Both the position numbers and the translations under genes were made by a program. Shown here in pieces: positions 20,988 through 35,244 of a DNA stretch of 64,000 nucleotides (position 1 is the stretch's first letter; every line of letters starts with the position of its first letter). Location of the stretch: positions 2,046,001 to 2,110,000 of the forward strand of contig NZ_CP066203.1 of assembly GCF_017310545.1 (NCBI RefSeq), written 5' to 3'. Origin of the DNA: Methylacidimicrobium sp. B4 (GTDB lineage Bacteria; Verrucomicrobiota; Verrucomicrobiia; Methylacidiphilales; Methylacidiphilaceae). A model generated the notes under the pieces. That model was not told the origin of the DNA, ran no database searches, and worked only from the letters and a program-made list of their open reading frames with translations.

Positions 20988-22526
<1,539 letters not shown>

Positions 22527-22715
22527 TAGGTCCGGGTCGGAGAAGGGCATCAGCCGTTCGACGACTTTCCGGACTAGGTCGACTTCCCTCGAAAGGAAAC
22601 TCGAGAGGGAAGCGGGATTCCGCAAGGAGTTCCATGGGCGTCACGCACAATTCAATTCTGCTTCGTGAGAAGTCATCCGCCGCTTGATGGCGCCAGGTAT
22701 GCTCGTCCGTAGGAA

Positions 22716-22788
22716 GGGGGCATAGCTCAGTTGGTAGAGCGACAGCTTTGCACGCTGTAGGTCAGGGGTTCGAATCCCCTTGCCTCCA
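22716..22788 (+). tRNA. tRNA-Ala(TGC)
   Basis: 73 bases with a full cloverleaf: acceptor GGGGGCA pairing with TGCCTCC (one G-T), D-loop AGCTCAGTTGGTAGAGC, anticodon loop CTTTGCACG reading TGC, and T-loop GGTTCGAATCC. CCA is not encoded. It lies in the 16S-23S spacer, the standard place. Confidence 0.97.
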
Positions 22789-22820
22789 GGGTGCAGCAAC
22801 CTTCGTTCGTTACTGCCCAG

Positions 22821-22894
22821 GGGCCTGTAGCTCAGTTGGTTAGAGCATGCGCTTGATAAGCGCAGGGTCACTGGTTCGAGCCCAGTCAGGCCCA
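22821..22894 (+). tRNA. tRNA-Ile(GAT)
   Basis: 74 bases: acceptor GGGCCTG pairing with CAGGCCC, D-arm AGCTCAGTTGGTTAGAGC, anticodon stem GCGCT/AGCGC around TGATA with anticodon GAT, and T-arm CTGGTTCGAGCCCAG. CCA is not encoded. It is the second spacer tRNA of the rRNA operon. Confidence 0.97.
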
Positions 22895-22981
22895 GCGATC
22901 GGGATGGCAGCGGCATGGAGGCGGGAGCTCATGACGGGCGCTGGCCTTCATGCCCTTGCCATTGAGGCGAAGCCGTTCTTT

Positions 22982-23002
22982 GAAAACTGCAGGCAACAGA
23001 AG
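22982..23002 (+). other. 5' arm of the 23S processing stem
   Basis: The 21 bases at 22982-23002 (start GAAAACTGCAGG) are nearly complementary to 25958-25979 after 23S, with a G-U pair and one extra T. The pair brackets the whole 23S gene, as expected for an RNase III processing helix. The rest of the 22895-23077 spacer shows a further short inverted repeat (CTGCGCGTAAGCGCAG) and no gene. Confidence 0.6.
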
Positions 23003-23077
23003 AGAAGCCATTATAGCTTCTGCCGGTGTCTTGAAGAGACCTGCGCGTAAGCGCAGACGCTCCAAAGAGACGGCGAC

Positions 23078-25934
<2,857 letters not shown>

Positions 25935-25957
25935 CGCGGCAGGGCTATGCGGCTAAT

Positions 25958-25979
25958 CTTCTGTTTGCCTGTAGTTTTC
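25958..25979 (+). other. 3' arm of the 23S processing stem
   Basis: Complements 22982-23002 upstream of 23S (see that entry). Confidence 0.6.
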
Positions 25980-26027
25980 AGGGAACGGCTGTCGCCAGGC
26001 GTCTGCGAAGCGGCAATGACCGGCAGA

Positions 26028-26145
26028 GGCCTGGTGATCGTAGAGACGTGGAACCACCCGTTCCCATCCCGAACACGGAAGTGAAACGCGTCATCGCCGA
26101 TGGTAGTGCGCCGGTAGGGCGTGCGAGAGTAGGTCATTGCCAGGT
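26028..26145 (+). rRNA. rrf: 5S ribosomal RNA
   Basis: About 118 bases. CCTGGTGAT at the 5' end pairs with ATTGCCAGG at the 3' end (helix I), and the body contains the universal CCCATCCCGAACACGGAAGT, GCCGATGGTAGTG and GCGAGAGTAGG blocks. The ends are approximate. Confidence 0.95.
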
Positions 26146-26300: not shown

Positions 26301-27326
26301 TCAGTCGTCCTCGGGGCGGCGGGTGGCAGGGGCATCCCCGATCGAGGGTGAGGAAGAAGGGCCGAGGGGGCGGCGAGCGAGGACGATATTGTACGCGTTG
26401 CCGAAGACGAATGCCTTCGAAGTGCTCCAAATGATCCGTTCCAGGTGGACCATTGTGCGCATCCGGAGCCGAAACTTCCAGAGCAGGAGGCGGCGGATGA
26501 AGCTCCAGGTCAGGCCCCAGGCCCAAAACGGGAGTTGGCGGTAGCGGATCGGGGCGAACCCGAGTTGGCGCATCTTGAGGACAAGGAGATTGGCGCCGAA
26601 GAAGTTGTAGTGCCAATTCTCAAAGAACGCCGTAACGTTTCGGTAGTCCTGCTCTCGGCGACAACCATCCAGGGACCCGGGAGAGAGAATCAAGAGTCGG
26701 CCTCCCGGCTTGAGCAGTCGCCAGCAGCGCGCCAGCCAGGCATCCAGATCCTTCGTATACCCGATCGATTCCAAAGAGTAGATGGCGTCGAAGGTGCATT
26801 CCGGGAGGCTCAGGTCGTCGAAGTCGGCGACGGTCGCCTTTACACGCCCCTCGAAGCTCTTGGATTTCCGTCGGCAGATCTCCGCTTGCACAGGAGAGTT
26901 GGTGACGCAGAGCACTTCGATGGCGCAACGACCGGCAAGGTAGCGGGCGGCCGCGCCCGAACCGCATCCTAGGTCCAGGAGGCGCATTCCGGGCTCCGGC
27001 TCCAGGAGGGTGTAGACGGCCTGGTAAGGAGGCGCGAAGATCGTGGGAGGAAAGACGCAGGTGCAGTAGTTCTCGTTCTCGCCGAGATAGAGACGAAAGA
27101 CATCGTCGTAGGTGCGATTCTGATCGTCGTGCTGGAGAAGGTTGTCGAGCCTGGGTGTCCACTCGACCAGCTGCCGCCGTTCGAACTCGTTGAGCTCATG
27201 GCCGATCTCTTCGGCGCTCTTGAGGTGAGTGACGAGAAGGAAGAGTAGGCAATGGAACAGGGTATAGGCGGCAAAGAGCGCAGCGACGAGTCCGGCGGCC
27301 AGCAGCACGATTGAAACGGGGGTCAC
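26301..27326 (-). CDS. Membrane-anchored SAM-dependent methyltransferase
   Basis: 341 residues from the GTG at 27324-27326, chosen because it overlaps the upstream lipoprotein stop (GTGA) and gives an N-terminal membrane anchor (VSIVLLAAGLVAALFAAYTL). A Rossmann methyltransferase core follows: motif I LLDLGCGSGAAARYLAG near 130, VADFDDLSLPECTFDAIYSL, and LLKPGGRLLILSPG. The layout resembles cyclopropane-fatty-acid-synthase-like and tocopherol/sterol-type methyltransferases. The substrate is probably lipophilic, but that is inference. A longer upstream frame would overlap the lipoprotein gene. Confidence 0.8.
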   Translation of the reverse strand: MTPVSIVLLAAGLVAALFAAYTLFHCLLFLLVTHLKSAEEIGHELNEFERRQLVEWTPRLDNLLQHDDQNRTYDDVFRLYLGENENYCTCVFPPTIFAPPYQAVYTLLEPEPGMRLLDLGCGSGAAARYLAGRCAIEVLCVTNSPVQAEICRRKSKSFEGRVKATVADFDDLSLPECTFDAIYSLESIGYTKDLDAWLARCWRLLKPGGRLLILSPGSLDGCRREQDYRNVTAFFENWHYNFFGANLLVLKMRQLGFAPIRYRQLPFWAWGLTWSFIRRLLLWKFRLRMRTMVHLERIIWSTSKAFVFGNAYNIVLARRPLGPSSSPSIGDAPATRRPEDD

Positions 27327-27946
27327 GGCTGTTGGGCGTTCGGAGCATTGGAGGCTTGGGCGGAGGGGGGCTGCGGGGCAGCGAGAGTCGTGGCTTGGTT
27401 CGGAACCGACGTAGACCGGGGCTTGCCGCCGGAAAGGGAGGCCTTGGGCTTCTCGGGGAGGTATTTTGCTACCCACCAGCGGGATTGCCCGCCTTGCGTG
27501 GCCGAAAGGACGGCTGCGGCGGGACCGACGAACGTAATGGCCGGGCCACTGGCCAGGGCACCGAGCATGAGGGCGTTCTGGGTGGCCGCGGCGGCGCCGG
27601 CGGTTACTCCACCGGCGGTGGCTCCGTAGTCTTGATAGGTGAGGATCGCATCCCCATGCATCCTTTTGGCCGCCTTGGCGACGTCCTGGAGGAGATCTCC
27701 TTTGCGGAGCGCGCTTCGGCGATCGTGAATGACGCCGATGATCTGATAAGGGCGAGGTGGCTGGCCGTCACTCCAGAGATCGATTCCGTTCACCTTGCGG
27801 AGAACGGCTCCCTTCCCCACCATCCTGGTGCCATTCTCCACAGGGATGTACGTCGTGTTGGCGCAAGCGGTCAGGAAGACAAGGCAGGGGAGGAAACAAA
27901 GAGCATGGCCGGCGGAAGCCCTGATCCACGCCAGAAAGGCTTTCAT
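27323..27946 (-). CDS. Putative lipoprotein, type A member of a four-paralog cluster (downstream copy)
   Basis: 207 residues with a signal ending in a lipobox-like LTAC (Cys near residue 28). The core is shared with three neighbours: a tyrosine-rich start (TTYIP), VGKGAVLRKVNGIDLWSDG, PPRPYQIIGVIHDRRS, a helical stretch ending AKRMHGDAILTYQDY, a Gly/Ala-rich hydrophobic section, and GGQSRWWVAKYLPEKP. The tail is Pro/Gln/Ala-rich, like that of the gene at 28702-29277. I cannot assign a function. Its stop overlaps the methyltransferase start, so the two are translationally coupled. Confidence 0.7.
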   Translation of the reverse strand: MKAFLAWIRASAGHALCFLPCLVFLTACANTTYIPVENGTRMVGKGAVLRKVNGIDLWSDGQPPRPYQIIGVIHDRRSALRKGDLLQDVAKAAKRMHGDAILTYQDYGATAGGVTAGAAAATQNALMLGALASGPAITFVGPAAAVLSATQGGQSRWWVAKYLPEKPKASLSGGKPRSTSVPNQATTLAAPQPPSAQASNAPNAQQP

Positions 27947-27968
27947 AAGGAGTTGAGAGGCATCGTCG

Positions 27969-28523
27969 TCATCTCGCTTTCATTGTACCCGACTTTGCGC
28001 CTCTTGGCAGGTAGCGGATCACCCACCAGCGGGATTGGCCGGTTCCAGCCGAAGAGAGGCCTCCGGCGGCCGCCCCGCCGTATGCGGCACTCGTAGCGAT
28101 TCCCGTGCCGAATTGGGACGAGTTACCCATGTTGCCCGATGCGCCGCTCACCGCGGCCACTCCGGCGCTCGAGGTCGCTGCGTAACCTTGGTATTCGAGG
28201 ATGCCCTGTCCGCCCATTTGTTTTGCCTTTCTGGTGACATCCTTGAGGATCGAGTCGCGGAAGAAGCCGCTTCGGCTGTCGTAGACGACCCCAATCACCT
28301 CGTACTTGCGAGGAGGGGTGCCGTCGCTCCAGACGTCGATCCCGTTGACGATCCGTCGGGCCGCAATGCCCTTCCCTTGCTGTTCGTTGGCGCCAACGAA
28401 GGGATAATATCGCGTCTGCGTGCATGCACCAAGGAGGAGGACACCGCTGGCCGCGAGAAGGGAGCGGACGTAGGTTAGGCGAATCGGTGGGTTTCGGGGA
28501 GTGGCTCGTGGATGAGGTCTCAT
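27969..28523 (-). CDS. Putative lipoprotein, type B member of the paralog cluster (downstream copy)
   Basis: 184 residues from the ATG at 28521-28523 (GGAG upstream). The signal leads to a lipobox LLGAC, then TQTRYYPFVGANEQQGKG, IVNGIDVWSDGTPPRKYEVI, GVVYDSRSG, an AKQMGGQGILEYQGY helix, a Gly/Ala/Ser-rich section and GQSRWWVIRYLPRG. The closest relative in the window is the gene at 29274-29909, which shares the YYPxVGAN opening and Gly/Ser-rich middle. It lies 22 bases upstream of the type A gene. Function unknown. Confidence 0.7.
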   Translation of the reverse strand: MRPHPRATPRNPPIRLTYVRSLLAASGVLLLGACTQTRYYPFVGANEQQGKGIAARRIVNGIDVWSDGTPPRKYEVIGVVYDSRSGFFRDSILKDVTRKAKQMGGQGILEYQGYAATSSAGVAAVSGASGNMGNSSQFGTGIATSAAYGGAAAGGLSSAGTGQSRWWVIRYLPRGAKSGTMKAR

Positions 28524-28701
28524 TTGTTCTTGTCGTCTCCCCGTTGAGCCTTTCGGCCGGAGCCAACGGGTGCTGGCGCACGAAGGCGCTCCAGGGATAG
28601 TCGAGAGGGAACGCCCTGTCAACCGGAGGATGAACCCAGAAGTAGATCTATAGGGCCGGAAGGAGGTTGCCCGGGGGAGAACGCGTGTCGGCAGCGGCTC
28701 C

Positions 28702-29277
28702 CTATGGGGCCGCTGCGTTCGTGCTCATCGGTCCGGGCGTAGGCTGCGGTGTGGCGGAAGATGGCGTCTTCGAGGAGGCCGTGTTGTCGTCAGCCTTCTC
28801 CGGGAGATACTTGGCGGCCCACCAGCGCGAGGTGCCCCCTTGGGCGGCACCGAGGGCGATGACGGCCGGTCCGGCGACGAGCAGGCCCGGGCCGGTTGCT
28901 GCGACGAGCGAGCCTACCCAGATCATGTTGCCCGCGGCCGCACCGGCTGCGGCAGTGGCGCCTCCCATCTGCAAGGAGTAGTCGTGATATTCGAGGATCG
29001 CGTCCGCCCCCATCTTCTTCGCCACCTTGGCCAGATCGTCTTGCAATGTGCTCTTCCGGAGGCCGCTTCGGTTGTCGTGGATGACGCCGACGATCTGGTA
29101 AGGTCGGGGAGGGAGGCCATCGGTCCAGAAGTCGATGCCTTTGACCCGATGGAGACTGGCTCCCTTGCCGACGGTGCGGGCTCCCCCTTGGTAAGGAATA
29201 TAGGTCGTGGTCGCGCAAGCGGTGAAGAAGAGCGGGAGAAGCAGGCAGCCGGGGCAGAGGAGATGCCGGACGTTCAT
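28702..29277 (-). CDS. Putative lipoprotein, type A member of the paralog cluster (upstream copy)
   Basis: 191 residues from the ATG at 29275-29277, which overlaps the stop of the gene upstream (ATGA). The lipobox is FTAC, followed by ATTTYIPYQGG, VGKGASLHRVKGIDFWTDG, PPRPYQIVGVIHDNRSG, AKKMGADAILEYHDY and GTSRWWAAKYLPEKA, then a Pro/Ser/Thr-rich tail. It is closest to the gene at 27323-27946. A longer frame exists upstream but overlaps the neighbour heavily. Function unknown. A 178-base gap with no gene separates it from the next paralog. Confidence 0.7.
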   Translation of the reverse strand: MNVRHLLCPGCLLLPLFFTACATTTYIPYQGGARTVGKGASLHRVKGIDFWTDGLPPRPYQIVGVIHDNRSGLRKSTLQDDLAKVAKKMGADAILEYHDYSLQMGGATAAAGAAAGNMIWVGSLVAATGPGLLVAGPAVIALGAAQGGTSRWWAAKYLPEKADDNTASSKTPSSATPQPTPGPMSTNAAAP

Positions 29278-29909
29278 GAATGATGGGCTGATCCTGGGTC
29301 CTGATCCTTTGCCGGGCGGACTTTCGGCGGCTTCGTCTCGCTGGAAGAAGAAGCTTGGTAACGAAAGACCCACCAGCGGGAAGCGCCCGCCCATCCTCCT
29401 CCGAGTCCTGCCGAGGCGGGCCCTGCGAAGGCGAGCCAGGAGGAAGCGGTCGGGCCGTATGCTTGCGGCAGCTGGTCGGCATTGCTGCCGAAGCCGCTGG
29501 CGGAAGCGGCGAAGGAGCTCATGGCGGTCGAGTAGGCTTTGTACTCGATGACGCCCTGAGCCCCCATCTTCTTTGCCTTCTTGACCACGTCCTTGAGGAG
29601 TGCGGCATGCAGGACGCCGCTCCGATGATCGTGGATCACGCCCACGATCGTGTAGCGGCGGGTCGGGAGGCCATCGCTCCAGACCTCGATCCCGTCGATT
29701 ACCCGCTCGCCGCCCCCTCCTTTGCCCAACTGCGTGTTCGCCCCGACGTAGGGATAGTAGTGGGTCTGGGCGCAGCCTCCCAGCAAGACAAGGGCCGCCG
29801 CGCGCAGAAGGGCATGGATCGGGAAGAGGCGGGCGGACTGGCAGTGCGGCTTGAGCGTCACGTTAACGGGGACCCCCTTCTGCCCTACGCAGCGATCTCG
29901 GCTTTTCAT
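29274..29909 (-). CDS. Putative lipoprotein, type B member of the paralog cluster (upstream copy)
   Basis: 211 residues from the ATG at 29907-29909; a GTG about 15 codons inside is an alternative start. The lipobox is LGGC (near residue 46 for the longer start), followed by AQTHYYPYVGANTQLGKGG, VIDGIEVWSDGLPTRRYTIV, GVIHDHRSG, AKKMGAQGVIEYKAY, a Ser/Ala/Gly-rich section and GASRWWVFRYQ. It is the first gene of the cluster, divergent from isocitrate dehydrogenase (191 bases between). Function unknown. Confidence 0.7.
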   Translation of the reverse strand: MKSRDRCVGQKGVPVNVTLKPHCQSARLFPIHALLRAAALVLLGGCAQTHYYPYVGANTQLGKGGGGERVIDGIEVWSDGLPTRRYTIVGVIHDHRSGVLHAALLKDVVKKAKKMGAQGVIEYKAYSTAMSSFAASASGFGSNADQLPQAYGPTASSWLAFAGPASAGLGGGWAGASRWWVFRYQASSSSETKPPKVRPAKDQDPGSAHHS

Positions 29910-30100: not shown

Positions 30101-31546
30101 ATGAGTAAGGTGCCCGTTACGGTTGCGTATGGGGATGGGATCGGCCCGGAGATCATGGCGGCGACGCTGGCGGTTCTGGAGGCGGCGGGTGCCGAGCTGG
30201 AGCTGGAGACGATCGAGATCGGAAAGGAGGTCTACCTCCGGGGGAACTCGAGCGGGATTGAGACGAAATCTTGGGAGAGCTTGCAGCGGACCAAGGTCTT
30301 CTTGAAAGCGCCGATCACGACACCGCAGGGTGGAGGATACAAGAGCCTCAATGTCACGGTGCGAAAGGCGCTGGGACTTTACGCCAATATCCGTCCCTGC
30401 ATGTCCTATGTCCCCTTCGTAGAAAGCAAGCATCCCGGCCTGGATGTCGTGATCGTCCGGGAGAACGAGGAGGATCTTTATGGCGGGATCGAGCACCGGC
30501 AGAGCGTCGACTCCTTCCAGTGCCTCAAGATCATGACGCGACCGGGGACCGAGCGGCTCATCCGCTATGCGTTCGAGTACGCCCGCTCCTACCGGAGGAA
30601 GAAGGTCACCTGCTTCACGAAGGACAACATCATGAAGCTGACCGACGGGATGTTCCACAGGGTCTTCGAGGAAGTCGGCGCGCAATATCCCGAGATCGAG
30701 AAAGAGCATTGGATCGTGGACATCGGGGCGGCCAAGCTTGCCGATACTCCGCAGATCTTCGACCTCGTCGTCGTCCCGAATCTCTATGGCGACATTCTGT
30801 CGGATGTCGTCGCCCAGATCGCCGGTTCCGTTGGGCTGGCGGGCTCCTCCAACATCGGCGCCCGATACGCCATGTTCGAGGCGATCCATGGCTCCGCTCC
30901 TCGTCGAGCCGGGCAAAACCTGGCGAATCCCTCCGGGCTTCTCCTGGCGGCGGTGCAAATGCTCCTCCACATCGGGCAGCGAGGCGTGGCCGAGCGGGTG
31001 CACAACGCCTGGTTGCGCACGCTTGAGGAAGGAGTCCATACCTACGATATTTTTCGTGCCGGGAAGAGCCGCCAAAAGGTGGGCACCAGGGAGTTCGGGT
31101 TGGCGGTGATCGCCAATCTCGGAGCAGTGCCGGAGACGCTCGCTCCGGTCCAATACGGGGAGGACGGGCTCAACCCTCGATCCGATTTTCCCTACCACCG
31201 TCCCGAAGAAAGAAAGGTCCTGGTCGGCGTCGACATCTTCGCCGAGTTTTCGGGAAGAGTCGAGGAGCTGGCTGCGGCGCTCCGGGAGGTCGGCCGCCAA
31301 GCAGTGGCGCTTGAGTCGATCGCAAACCGCGGAATGAGCGTCTGGCCTTTCGGGCTGGGCGAAACGCTGCTTGCGGGACCCTTCCAGTGCCGGCTTCTGG
31401 CCAAGGACCGGTCCTTGGGGCTTTCGCAGCGGGCGATCGTCGAGCTTCTCGGGTCGGTCGAGGCCGCGGGAATTGAGTTCACAAAGGCAGAGCTCCTGTA
31501 TACGTTTAACGGCGCCGAAGGGTTTTCCCGAAGCCAAGGAGCCTAG
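30101..31546 (+). CDS. icd: Isocitrate dehydrogenase (isocitrate/isopropylmalate family, Thermus-type length)
   Basis: 481 residues from the ATG at 30101 (GGAG upstream); an upstream in-frame extension has no coding character. The catalytic domain shows VAYGDGIGPEIMAATL, KAPITTPQGGGYKSLNVTVR, the Arg pair region LGLYANIRPC, RENEEDLYGGIEHRQ, the metal site DVVAQIAGSVGLAGSSNIG and the cofactor loop HGSAPRRAGQNLANPSGLL. About 140 extra C-terminal residues match the elongated Thermus-type isocitrate dehydrogenases. It converts isocitrate to 2-oxoglutarate in the TCA cycle. NAD versus NADP preference is not certain by eye. Confidence 0.85.
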   Translation: MSKVPVTVAYGDGIGPEIMAATLAVLEAAGAELELETIEIGKEVYLRGNSSGIETKSWESLQRTKVFLKAPITTPQGGGYKSLNVTVRKALGLYANIRPCMSYVPFVESKHPGLDVVIVRENEEDLYGGIEHRQSVDSFQCLKIMTRPGTERLIRYAFEYARSYRRKKVTCFTKDNIMKLTDGMFHRVFEEVGAQYPEIEKEHWIVDIGAAKLADTPQIFDLVVVPNLYGDILSDVVAQIAGSVGLAGSSNIGARYAMFEAIHGSAPRRAGQNLANPSGLLLAAVQMLLHIGQRGVAERVHNAWLRTLEEGVHTYDIFRAGKSRQKVGTREFGLAVIANLGAVPETLAPVQYGEDGLNPRSDFPYHRPEERKVLVGVDIFAEFSGRVEELAAALREVGRQAVALESIANRGMSVWPFGLGETLLAGPFQCRLLAKDRSLGLSQRAIVELLGSVEAAGIEFTKAELLYTFNGAEGFSRSQGA

Positions 31547-31714: not shown

Positions 31715-32707
31715 GTGTTCAAGCCGGAGGCGAAAAGCGGGTTTCGCTCGGGGAGCTGTCTTTATGGATCGCTAACGAATTCGGGGCCATCGGGCTGTAT
31801 TTGCGCTCTCTTGCCTTCTCTCGCTCTCGTTCTGGTTCTTCAGGGATTCTCTTCCCTCAGGGCCGATCCCGTCTTTTACCCGGGGGTCGAGGTTGCCGCC
31901 CAAGATCTCGTCGAAGGAATGAACGAGGAGGATCCCGGTAAAGACTGGCTTGGCCGTTGGCGCCGGATGACGATCGAGACGCGCGAAAAGCAGACGCACT
32001 GGTTGACGCCGCTCGTCACGGAAACCCCTCGCTTGGAGCAGCGTATCCGCTATGACGTCTACGACGAAACCTTGCCGAACGGAAACAAGAAGTGGAATTT
32101 CGGGGCCGGCAAGGGAGTCAACTTCATCATCGCTCCGACGATGGAGGCGGCAGTGGCTTTACCGCAGTATCTCTACTATCCGGGAGCCGGAGGCCTGGAC
32201 GGATTCCGGGGAGAAAGCTTCATGATCAAGAATCGCATCATGGCTTCTCCGGAGGGCCAGAAGAACTACGTCTTTTCCGTCATGCTCGAATCGCTTACGC
32301 CGACCGGGACGCTGCCGGGAGCCGCCGAGCATTGGATCTGGACGCCAATTGTGACCTTTGGCAAAGGCTGGGGAAACTTCGACTTTATGGTGAACCTGGG
32401 GACCTCCTGGGCCGACGCGGACAACAAGCAACTGGGCACTCCGCTCGTCTGGGGCTTGGCCTTGCAGTATCGGTTCGGAGTGATCTGCCCCACGATTGAG
32501 TTGAATTCGCACCCATCGATAAGCCAATTCTTTTTTTTCGGCCAGCCGGGACTCTTCCTGACCCCCGAGCTCTTGATCGGGCGCTTCCACTTCCGCGATA
32601 ACTACTCGCTCTATTTCGGCTTTGGCTACCAGATGGCGCTCGATGCCGCGACGGTGGAGGAGCAGTATGCGAATGCGCTCGTCGTCAAGTTCCATCTTCT
32701 CTTTTGA
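31715..32707 (+). CDS. Outer-membrane beta-barrel protein, paralog 1
   Basis: 330 residues from GTG with a strong AAGGGGGA ribosome site. The signal peptide has a long polar n-region, then LLPSLALVLVLQGFSSLRA and cleavage before DPVFYPG. The mature part alternates aromatic and polar residues as in a barrel: RLEQRIRYDVYDE, WIWTPIVTFGKGWGNFDFMV, FGFGYQMALD. It ends in Phe, the C-terminal outer-membrane assembly signal. The next gene is a clear paralog. I do not recognise a named family; a porin or transport channel is plausible. Confidence 0.7.
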   Translation: MFKPEAKSGFRSGSCLYGSLTNSGPSGCICALLPSLALVLVLQGFSSLRADPVFYPGVEVAAQDLVEGMNEEDPGKDWLGRWRRMTIETREKQTHWLTPLVTETPRLEQRIRYDVYDETLPNGNKKWNFGAGKGVNFIIAPTMEAAVALPQYLYYPGAGGLDGFRGESFMIKNRIMASPEGQKNYVFSVMLESLTPTGTLPGAAEHWIWTPIVTFGKGWGNFDFMVNLGTSWADADNKQLGTPLVWGLALQYRFGVICPTIELNSHPSISQFFFFGQPGLFLTPELLIGRFHFRDNYSLYFGFGYQMALDAATVEEQYANALVVKFHLLF

Positions 32708-32964
32708 GAGACGACAGGTGCCCACAAGACTTTGCTCACAACTTCGGCCCACCCCTCGGGTTTAACGTTAGGAAAGGGCTTGTGCTGGATGCACGGGTCA
32801 CCTGGGGGCTTTCGAAGTCGGCGGTCCTGGATCCTCGAATCGAAAAGAACTTGCCAAGTTGGCGTGCGAATTGCTTATCGGAGTCTGCCTTTGCTCAACC
32901 GCCGGATGCTCGCCTTCCCTCCTTCATGAGCCTGCGAGGATCCCATCTCTTCCGACAGGCTAGC

Positions 32965-33903
32965 ATGTCGGCTCAGGGCAACCGCTCCGCGGCCTCACTC
33001 CGCCTTGTGCTTCTGGTTGTGGGTTGGATTCTTGCCCTTTATTCGCGGTCCGCTCACGCCGATCCGATTTTCTATCCAGGCGAGGAGATCGCGGCGCAAG
33101 ACCTGGTGGAAAGCATGAATGACCAGCCTCCCGGCCCAAGCTGGTTCGAGCAGTGGTACCACATGACTGCAGCGACCAAGCAGCGCCAGGCGAACTGGAT
33201 GACTCCCCTGGTTACGACGACCGCGCGGCTCGAGCAGCGGATTCGGTACGACGTCTACGACGAGACGAAGGGAAACGGGAACAAGGAGTACAATTTCGGG
33301 AGCGGCAAGGGCGTGAGCCTCATTGTGACTCCCACCGACGAATTCACCTTTTCTCTCCCGAACTATATCGACGAACCCGGGGTGCCGAGCGCGACGGGAT
33401 TTCAGGGTGAAGTGCTCCAACTCCGGCATCGACTCATGGCCTCTCCGGAAAACCAGAAGAACTACGTCTTTTCGGTCCAGCTTGCCGCGCTCACTCCGAC
33501 GGGGTTGATTCCGGATAAGCAGAACCACTGGGTCTGGACGCCAATGATCCTTTTCGGAAAGGGATGGGGCAATTTCACCTTCATGATCAATCTCGGCACC
33601 CAGTGGGCCGACGGAGACAATCAGCAGCTTTCCGCTCCGATTATCTGGAATGCGGCGTTCGAATACCGGTTCGGCTATCTCACTCCCTGCGTGGAGCTGA
33701 ACAGCCAACCGAGCGTCACCCGCTTCCTGGCCTTCGGGTCGCCGGGACTCTTCGTCACGCCGGAGCTTTTGATCGGCCGCTTCCCGATGACCGAGGAGCT
33801 TCGCTACTACTTTGGAATCGGCTACCAGATTGCTCTCGATCACGCTACGATCGAGTCGAAGTATGCGAACGCCCTCATCGCGAAGTTCCATATTCTTTTT
33901 TAA
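32965..33903 (+). CDS. Outer-membrane beta-barrel protein, paralog 2
   Basis: 312 residues from the ATG at 32965; an ATG 13 codons upstream is the alternative. The Sec signal (LRLVLLVVGWILALYSRSAHA) is cleaved before DPIFYPG. It matches the previous gene block by block: AAQDLVESMN, RLEQRIRYDVYDETKGNGNK, MASPENQKNYVFSVQL, WVWTPMILFGKGWGNFTFMI, FVTPELLIGRF, and a C-terminal Phe. The 257 bases between the two paralogs are open in this frame but look non-coding. Function unknown. Confidence 0.7.
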   Translation: MSAQGNRSAASLRLVLLVVGWILALYSRSAHADPIFYPGEEIAAQDLVESMNDQPPGPSWFEQWYHMTAATKQRQANWMTPLVTTTARLEQRIRYDVYDETKGNGNKEYNFGSGKGVSLIVTPTDEFTFSLPNYIDEPGVPSATGFQGEVLQLRHRLMASPENQKNYVFSVQLAALTPTGLIPDKQNHWVWTPMILFGKGWGNFTFMINLGTQWADGDNQQLSAPIIWNAAFEYRFGYLTPCVELNSQPSVTRFLAFGSPGLFVTPELLIGRFPMTEELRYYFGIGYQIALDHATIESKYANALIAKFHILF

Positions 33904-33921: not shown

Positions 33922-35244
33922 ATGAGGAGGCTCCTCCGGCTGGGATCCATTGCTCTCGGGCTGGCTTTTTTGGGCCTGCCGCACTCCTCGGCTGGCCCTT
34001 CGCCTCGCGCAACGGTGGAAGCATGCCTGGAAAACAGCGACCTGGTCGGCGCCGGGGAGGCGACACGGGAGTGGGTGCGGGCACAACCGGATGCCGCAGC
34101 ATCCTGGAAGAAGCTCGGCTGGTTCGAGCTCATGGAGAATCGCCTTCCGGAAGCGCGCACCCATCTTCATCAGGCGCTTCGGCTCGACCCGTCGGATCGG
34201 GAGACCAAGGCGCTCCTCTCCCTTGCCTGGTATCGGACGGGAGAGCTGAGCCAGTCCTCGGCAGATCTCGACGCTCTCGGCCTCGATGCGCTGGCCGAGC
34301 TCGTTGCAACGCTTGAGCCCGGAGCCTATACGGTGAGCGGAGCGACTTCGGTCCGGATCGGCCTGCTCCCGGGCTCCTTGCGGCCGAAGTTCCCGGTGCG
34401 GGTCAACGGAAAGGAGGCCCAATTCTACCTCGACACCCGCGGTGGGATGAGCGCCATCAACGACACTGTGGCGCGCGCGGCGAAGGTCGAGCGGCAGCGG
34501 AGCAACTTCCTTCAGTTCTGGTTCTGGGCCGCCGGGAAATGGACGGTCAAGAATCGTTTCGGGCGGATGGAAAGGCTTGATTTAGGACCGATGCAAGTCG
34601 GACGGGTTCCCGTGCTCTTGCCGAACTGGAAGGGGTTGGTGGACGGCTTGCTCGGGACCGATTTCCTTTCCCATTTCCAGACGGTGGTCGATTACCCGCG
34701 GAAGGAGCTCCTTCTCCGCAAAGCCGAGCCGGGATCAGCAAAAGATCCGCGTCCGGAGAAAGGCTACGAGGATGGGCGGATCGTCCTCCCCTTCTTTTGG
34801 ACGCCCGGAGGGCAGATCGTGCTGCAAGGACAGGTCAATGGCAGGGACGTGATCTTTCTATTGGATACCGTCGCCGCCGGGAGGCCGATTACGCTCTCCC
34901 GGAGATTGATCCACCGGGCCCACCTTCCCGCGCACGGCGGCTACATCATCAGCCTTCGGCGAGCGGGTCTTTTTCCCCGGGTTTATACGGAGTTCCGGGA
35001 ATTGCAGATCGGACCGATCGTGCAGAGCGATCAGAAGGCGGACATCGGCACGATGTACGACTTTCCGCCCTCCATCGATCATATGCAGGGGTTTCCGATC
35101 GATGGCATCCTGGGGAATGCCTTCTTCCAGTCCTATCGGCTAACCTTGGATTTCCATCGCATGCGTGTCATGCTCGAGCCCTCGAAGCGTATTGGAGCGA
35201 TGCAGGACCGGGTGCGCACCGCGAACCCGGTTGCGGAGCGGTAG
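33922..35244 (+). CDS. Periplasmic TPR plus double retropepsin-like domain protein
   Basis: 440 residues with a Sec signal (ALGLAFLGLPHSSA). Residues about 30-125 are TPR-like helices. Two retroviral-protease-like folds follow. The first has FYLDTRGGMSAIN at about 169-180 and DGLLGTDFLSHF at 241-252; the second has IFLLDTVAAGRPITLS at about 311-326 and a closing DGILGNAFFQSYRLTLDF. The D-T-G triad is degenerate in both (DTRG and DTVA), so active protease function is uncertain. It starts 18 bases after the second outer-membrane protein, suggesting one transcription unit. Confidence 0.7.
   Translation: MRRLLRLGSIALGLAFLGLPHSSAGPSPRATVEACLENSDLVGAGEATREWVRAQPDAAASWKKLGWFELMENRLPEARTHLHQALRLDPSDRETKALLSLAWYRTGELSQSSADLDALGLDALAELVATLEPGAYTVSGATSVRIGLLPGSLRPKFPVRVNGKEAQFYLDTRGGMSAINDTVARAAKVERQRSNFLQFWFWAAGKWTVKNRFGRMERLDLGPMQVGRVPVLLPNWKGLVDGLLGTDFLSHFQTVVDYPRKELLLRKAEPGSAKDPRPEKGYEDGRIVLPFFWTPGGQIVLQGQVNGRDVIFLLDTVAAGRPITLSRRLIHRAHLPAHGGYIISLRRAGLFPRVYTEFRELQIGPIVQSDQKADIGTMYDFPPSIDHMQGFPIDGILGNAFFQSYRLTLDFHRMRVMLEPSKRIGAMQDRVRTANPVAER

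Follow-up and report, generated by a model that had tools for sequence, protein, structure and literature searches.

A minus-strand tandem of four lipoprotein genes was analysed in Methylacidimicrobium sp. B4, in a window of 64,000 nucleotides (contig NZ_CP066203.1, positions 2,046,001 to 2,110,000). Judged by their sequences, the four products form an uncatalogued lipoprotein family that has been conserved in acidophilic methanotrophs of two genera. The family is a real one, and it contains a genuine duplication of a two-gene unit in which a type-B gene is followed by a type-A gene; the core of the proteins has a probable known fold, and for their function we infer a part in the cell envelope. 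In the order of transcription, the genes are B2 (29274..29909), the first gene of the cluster, and A2 (28702..29277), which together make the first pair and overlap by 4 bases (ATGA, 29274-29277), followed by B1 (27969..28523) and A1 (27323..27946), which make the second pair and were assigned by open reading frame, identity and alignment. The two pairs are separated by 178 bases (28524-28701), and B1 and A1 by 22 bases (27947-27968). An earlier note on this DNA had proposed these four reading frames with this overlap and these gaps, and all of them were borne out. The host genome is found on a single contig of 2.37 Mb, and among named organisms it is closest to strain LP2A and Methylacidimicrobium tartarophylax.

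All four proteins begin with a hydrophobic leader that ends in a lipobox (LTAC, LGAC, FTAC and LGGC), whose cysteine is invariant across 16 aligned sequences. By the sequence criterion they are bacterial lipoproteins of the general secretion/signal peptidase II (Sec/SPII) type, and lipidation is predicted. The same alignment contains 29 invariant columns, and the sequence blocks that the earlier note had described as shared are present; the most variable parts are an internal insert and the C-terminal tails. When the genes were compared with their orthologs in strain LP2A, the ratio of nonsynonymous to synonymous substitution rates (dN/dS) was 0.24-0.30 for all four; therefore, all four are real genes under purifying selection. 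The annotated start of B2 is doubtful, because its LP2A ortholog begins 17 residues closer to the lipobox; translation probably begins downstream of the ATG at 29909, and the GTG at 29861 fits better.

The homology of the four proteins is clear from local alignment scores of 274-487 for all six protein pairs, against at most 64 in 100 shuffles for each pair. The two highest identities were found within types (A1-A2, 56.4%; B1-B2, 45.5%), and the pairs of unlike type reached 38.2-44.0%, so that like types are indeed more alike than unlike ones. Because B1-B2 identity exceeds the best A-B pair by only 1.5 points, the stronger evidence for two types is a tree of 28 proteins, in which 14 A and 14 B sequences were separated at 100/100. 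The two alternating types anticipated by the earlier note were thus recovered by both approaches. Because each half of the tree contains both genera, the split between A and B must have preceded their divergence. Additionally, B lies upstream of A in all 14 complete pairs, which come from 10 genomes. Since A-A and B-B are closer than A-B and the A/B split predates the genera, the trees and identities indicate that the split came first and that the whole unit was duplicated afterwards to give the second B-A pair. The duplication of a two-gene unit, as previously proposed, is in this way supported by identity, gene order and trees, although the unit had been described as A followed by B, which is the reverse of its transcription order. 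It is very improbable that A1/A2 and B1/B2 arose by two separate duplications, since, although the trees do not fix the timing of each event, the types alternate, both splits occupy a similar position in the tree and one event is simpler.

The distribution of the genes was surveyed by protein search in 13 Methylacidiphilaceae genomes (G000-G012). Four copies were found in four of them (G000, G001, G002 and G006) and two copies in six (G005, G007 and G009-G012); five of the latter (G007, G009-G012) represent the second genus, g2, which appears to be Methylacidiphilum-like. At this locus, no copies were found in G003, which is 83% complete, or in G008. In G004, an A-type fragment was observed at a contig end, followed by the rRNA operon, and neither the second pair nor the methyltransferase gene discussed below was found there. 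With regard to the age of the duplication, constraint tests rejected neither the holding together of the A copies of the genus (p 0.37), nor A1 outside (p 0.20), nor B1 outside (p 0.31), and they are compatible with placing the duplication either on the Methylacidimicrobium stem or before it. A TypA+NadB tree did not place G004 and G005 with respect to the four-copy genomes, nor did a tree of isocitrate dehydrogenase place G005. The TypA+NadB test for a single clade rejected the four-copy group, at least because the draft G003, where the locus was not seen, groups with one of its members, and no conclusion is drawn from this rejection. We lean, without regarding the matter as settled, towards an early duplication with the second pair then lost in G005 and G004, because A1 and A2, as well as B1 and B2, differ from each other far more than orthologs do.

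The statement that the proteins belong to no described family held in the profile databases: no matches were obtained for the four proteins in Pfam at E <= 1 or in PADLOC at E <= 0.01, and the best NCBIfam match reached 17.9 bits, where the cut-off is 550. It did not hold for the core, which most probably has the fold of RcsF, DUF1471 and YbjQ, as discussed below. Ten more distant relatives likewise gave nothing credible in Pfam or NCBIfam, the best lead being YbjQ at E 0.073 for one of them (L044), and the family profile matched sequences of solved structures at chance level only (best E 0.062). In the genome of the window, a 20-sequence profile yielded eight matches at E <= 0.001, four being the cluster proteins and the others a shorter lipoprotein devoid of the insert (G000:C1:2311356) and three remote matches (2342563, 204347 and 174800). 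Of 387 genomes sampled from the phylum, only 11 had a profile match, 7 of them Methylacidiphilaceae. Remote paralogs in the genome of the window (L067, L068 and L069) display P-RPYV-(I/L)G-I ... GSPRTRAV..A(K/R)..GADA cores and had no Pfam or NCBIfam match.

The proteins contain a Gly/Ala-rich insert of 47-52 residues, in which G, A, S and T account for 58-82% of the residues and at most one is charged. On the minus strand, the hydrophobic inserts of type A are encoded at 28831..28977 (A2) and 27485..27625 (A1), and the Gly/Ala/Ser-rich inserts of type B at 29382..29531 (B2, between the last two core strands) and 28035..28181 (B1); those of A2 and B2 were delimited by alignment and model, and those of A1 and B1 by alignment. 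The hydropathy of the best 19-residue segment, measured in 27 of the 28 sequences with one A sequence left out, was 1.48-1.91 in type A (n=13) and 0.62-1.26 in type B (n=14), with disjoint ranges. By this measure A and B differ systematically in the insert, which is the part that distinguishes them from the short paralog. In genomes of the second genus (L061-L064), the Gly/Ala-rich insert is replaced by a low-complexity stretch rich in G, F, Y and P, GYGMFGYPFGFGDPFWGPMMYPG, which comes after a related core.

The fold of the core was approached with AlphaFold2 models of full B2 and mature A2, computed from 16 sequences each. The two models agree: a short hairpin comes first, then a long strand, a helix and a further strand; the insert, which is poorly modelled, follows, and the final strand bears SRWW. 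The insert thus lies in the hairpin between strands 3 and 4. In the RcsF/DUF1471/YbjQ fold, a long helix between strands 2 and 3 lies on an antiparallel sheet, and the order seen in both models is strand-helix-strand-strand. In structural alignments, the best matches of B2 were YahO (Z 6.3, 3.0 Å over 75) and the Francisella lipoprotein FvfA (PDB 5evf, 5evg; Z 6.2 and 6.2), the next row being at 3.5, and those of A2 were an archaeal Se-binding protein (Z 5.9), FvfA (5.9 and 5.8) and the C-terminal domain of YdgH (Z 5.3, 2.5 Å over 60), the next being at 2.7. FvfA therefore lies at Z 5.8-6.2 against both models, and it is itself known to resemble RcsF. Neither RcsF nor YbjQ appeared in the structural rows that were returned, which is not counted as evidence against either. 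Additionally, a core profile with the insert columns removed and distant relatives added matched YbjQ with a probability of 50.6 and a score of 26.5, against at most 0.98 and 14.2, respectively, in 40 column shuffles; the matching region corresponds to the helix and the GA(D/N)A strand. According to the accessible text of PMC4092069, DUF1471, RcsF, the Se-binding protein, YbjQ and DUF74 have one fold in common, and the loop between strands 3 and 4 is longer in RcsF.

Several observations weigh against this assignment. The mean predicted local distance difference test (pLDDT) score was 64 for B2 and 60 for A2, with the inserts unmodelled; all structural Z values were below 8; Foldseek gave no match at E <= 0.001 with B2 or with A2; and the YbjQ profile match spans only 24 columns and fell to a probability of 12.5 without the distant relatives. 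The family profiles point in the same direction, since RcsF (PF16358) had no match at the locus, its genome best being 14.5 bits elsewhere against a cut-off of 29, DUF1471 (PF07338, YdgH_BhsA) had no match at the locus and only sub-cut-off matches elsewhere in 6 genomes, and YbjQ (PF01906) matched in none of the 13 Methylacidiphilaceae genomes, compared with 12 of the 60 genomes searched. By sequence profile, therefore, the proteins fall outside the RcsF, DUF1471 and YbjQ families. The models nevertheless suggest that the core probably has the RcsF/DUF1471/YbjQ fold, an assignment that is kept at probable because Z stays below 8 and the Foldseek E values above 0.001.

The relation to known proteins of this fold class is one of partial likeness. 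The core has some of its best structural matches in the DUF1471/YhcN-BhsA proteins (YahO, YdgH/SssB), which are likewise small periplasmic domains with several paralogs, but the cluster proteins lack their profile match and are lipoproteins with a long insert between strands 3 and 4 and an N-terminal hairpin. FvfA shares only 13-17% identity over the aligned part. YbjQ (UPF0145) and the Se-binding protein align by profile and by structure, respectively, but a lipid anchor is not mentioned for them in the accessible part of PMC4092069. RcsF, which PMC4092069 places in the DUF1471 fold class, is likewise a lipoprotein whose loop between strands 3 and 4 is long. A different comparison is offered by an abundant lipoprotein of Methylacidiphilum fumariolicum (WP_009060351), which is also a lineage-restricted envelope lipoprotein of these bacteria; however, in the available portion of PMC10260701, it is described with 139 residues, a different signal peptide, and amylase and galT as neighbours.

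For the B-A pair the fold is predicted, and we infer its co-transcription, outer-membrane location, oligomeric state, membrane contact and role. The pair would be an envelope lipoprotein device ancestral to Methylacidiphilum and Methylacidimicrobium, both genes of which were duplicated together. Each protein would be anchored by its N-terminal lipid and would present a small periplasmic alpha/beta domain with a loop of 47-52 residues in the hairpin preceding the last strand (SRWWxxKYL). One message would encode both B and A, and the two would probably form an oligomer of mixed composition on the periplasmic side of the outer membrane. There, the A insert, which is the more hydrophobic, may dip into or pack on the membrane, with the more polar insert of B pointing away, and the assembly could serve as structural support or as a monitor of the outer membrane in acid. 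We give slightly less than an even chance to this reading as a whole, in which the pair consists of co-expressed envelope lipoproteins, duplicated as a unit and probably built on an RcsF-type core, that form oligomers and either support the outer membrane or monitor it. A further point on the opposite side is that LolA and LolB are reported absent from these genera in the accessible text of PMC10260701, and the +2 rule of E. coli therefore does not tell in which membrane the proteins end up. In a bolder form, which we regard as quite improbable, the pairs would be a lineage-specific device of acidophilic methanotrophs: hetero-oligomeric A-B rings on an RcsF/YbjQ-type scaffold, with A inserts entering the membrane and a second form coupled to a dedicated envelope methyltransferase, would together take the place of outer-membrane stabilising or sensing systems in these bacteria, which reportedly have neither LolA nor LolB.

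The insert itself could be the working part, as a glycine-zipper-like membrane hairpin that makes rings or pores, leaving to the core only a role in assembly. Its composition, near absence of charge and A-type hydropathy of up to 1.91 are in agreement with this idea, as are the pentamers reported for YbjQ and the Se-binding protein in the accessible text of PMC4092069. However, the B inserts, at no more than 1.26, are rather polar for a membrane span, the A-type stretch is broken by prolines and the insert has a pLDDT below 50 in both models, so that this possibility appears unlikely. It is still more doubtful that each pair is an RcsF-like signalling set, whose core senses damage and contacts an inner-membrane regulator. 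The RcsF-like fold family, the lipid anchor and the long strand 3-4 loop would fit, but no phosphorelay genes were seen among the immediate neighbours, the RcsF profile is silent at the locus and none of the four mature domains contains a cysteine after that of the lipobox, whereas RcsF contains redox-active disulfides (PMC4092069, accessible text). Redox sensing of the RcsF type is unlikely because the lipid-anchored cysteine is the only one left after maturation. Finally, the four proteins could be old lineage-specific surface lipoproteins used for surface variation or adhesion, without a common assembly. Their inserts and tails are the most variable parts and tandem paralogs are usual for such genes, but purifying selection on all four, the strict B-A order and the fixed genomic site across two genera make this explanation a poor prospect. 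If the B-A pair is an outer-membrane structural or sensing unit, it would provide a handle on how the envelope stays intact in acid and on how lipoproteins are sorted when LolA and LolB are missing, as PMC10260701 reports; and, given the probable fold, an uncatalogued lipoprotein family of acidophilic methanotrophs would be tied to the fold of enterobacterial envelope stress proteins.

The second pair is followed by a gene for an S-adenosylmethionine (SAM) methyltransferase with an N-terminal hydrophobic segment (26301..27326, minus strand). In the window, its GTG start overlaps the stop of A1 (GTGA), and at the other three four-copy loci a same-frame GTG lies 2 bases past the stop. Orthologs of at least 79% were found only in the four four-copy genomes among the 13, with a single remote match elsewhere (G010; 109 residues at 37%), and therefore the second pair and the methyltransferase come and go together. 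The second pair would be co-transcribed with this membrane-anchored enzyme, which may act on a lipid or a small molecule, and the linkage suggests an envelope-modification variant of the B-A device. The nearest matches of the domain include phosphoethanolamine N-methyltransferases and cyclopropane-fatty-acid-synthase types, but a lipid-like substrate is only a guess, because the domain is a generic class I methyltransferase. A PADLOC match to mad2 (E 1.8e-24, 161/492 positions) was not taken as pointing to a defence role, as it probably reflects only the shared methyltransferase domain, here in a shorter, membrane-anchored protein.

The cluster is flanked by the gene for isocitrate dehydrogenase (30104..31546, plus strand) and, on the other side, by a 16S-tRNA-tRNA-23S-5S rRNA operon (20988..26145, plus strand). 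This arrangement of isocitrate dehydrogenase, pair or pairs and rRNA operon was present at all eight loci checked (the window, L007-L009 and L070-L073), out of the 10 genomes with complete pairs, and at one of them (L072) the B-A pair itself is inverted between its usual neighbours. Single B-A pairs occupy the same site in the Methylacidiphilum-like genomes and in one Methylacidimicrobium. Beyond isocitrate dehydrogenase, two plus-strand tandem paralogs (31778-32704 and 32908-33900), whose FYPG-E-AAQDLVE starts were noticed by eye, had no match in Pfam or NCBIfam scans, and as a guess their products resemble outer-membrane barrel proteins. The next plus-strand product (33922-35244) displays a start resembling a tetratricopeptide repeat (TPR) and two DT-containing stretches, which may be like those of a periplasmic retropepsin-type aspartyl protease.

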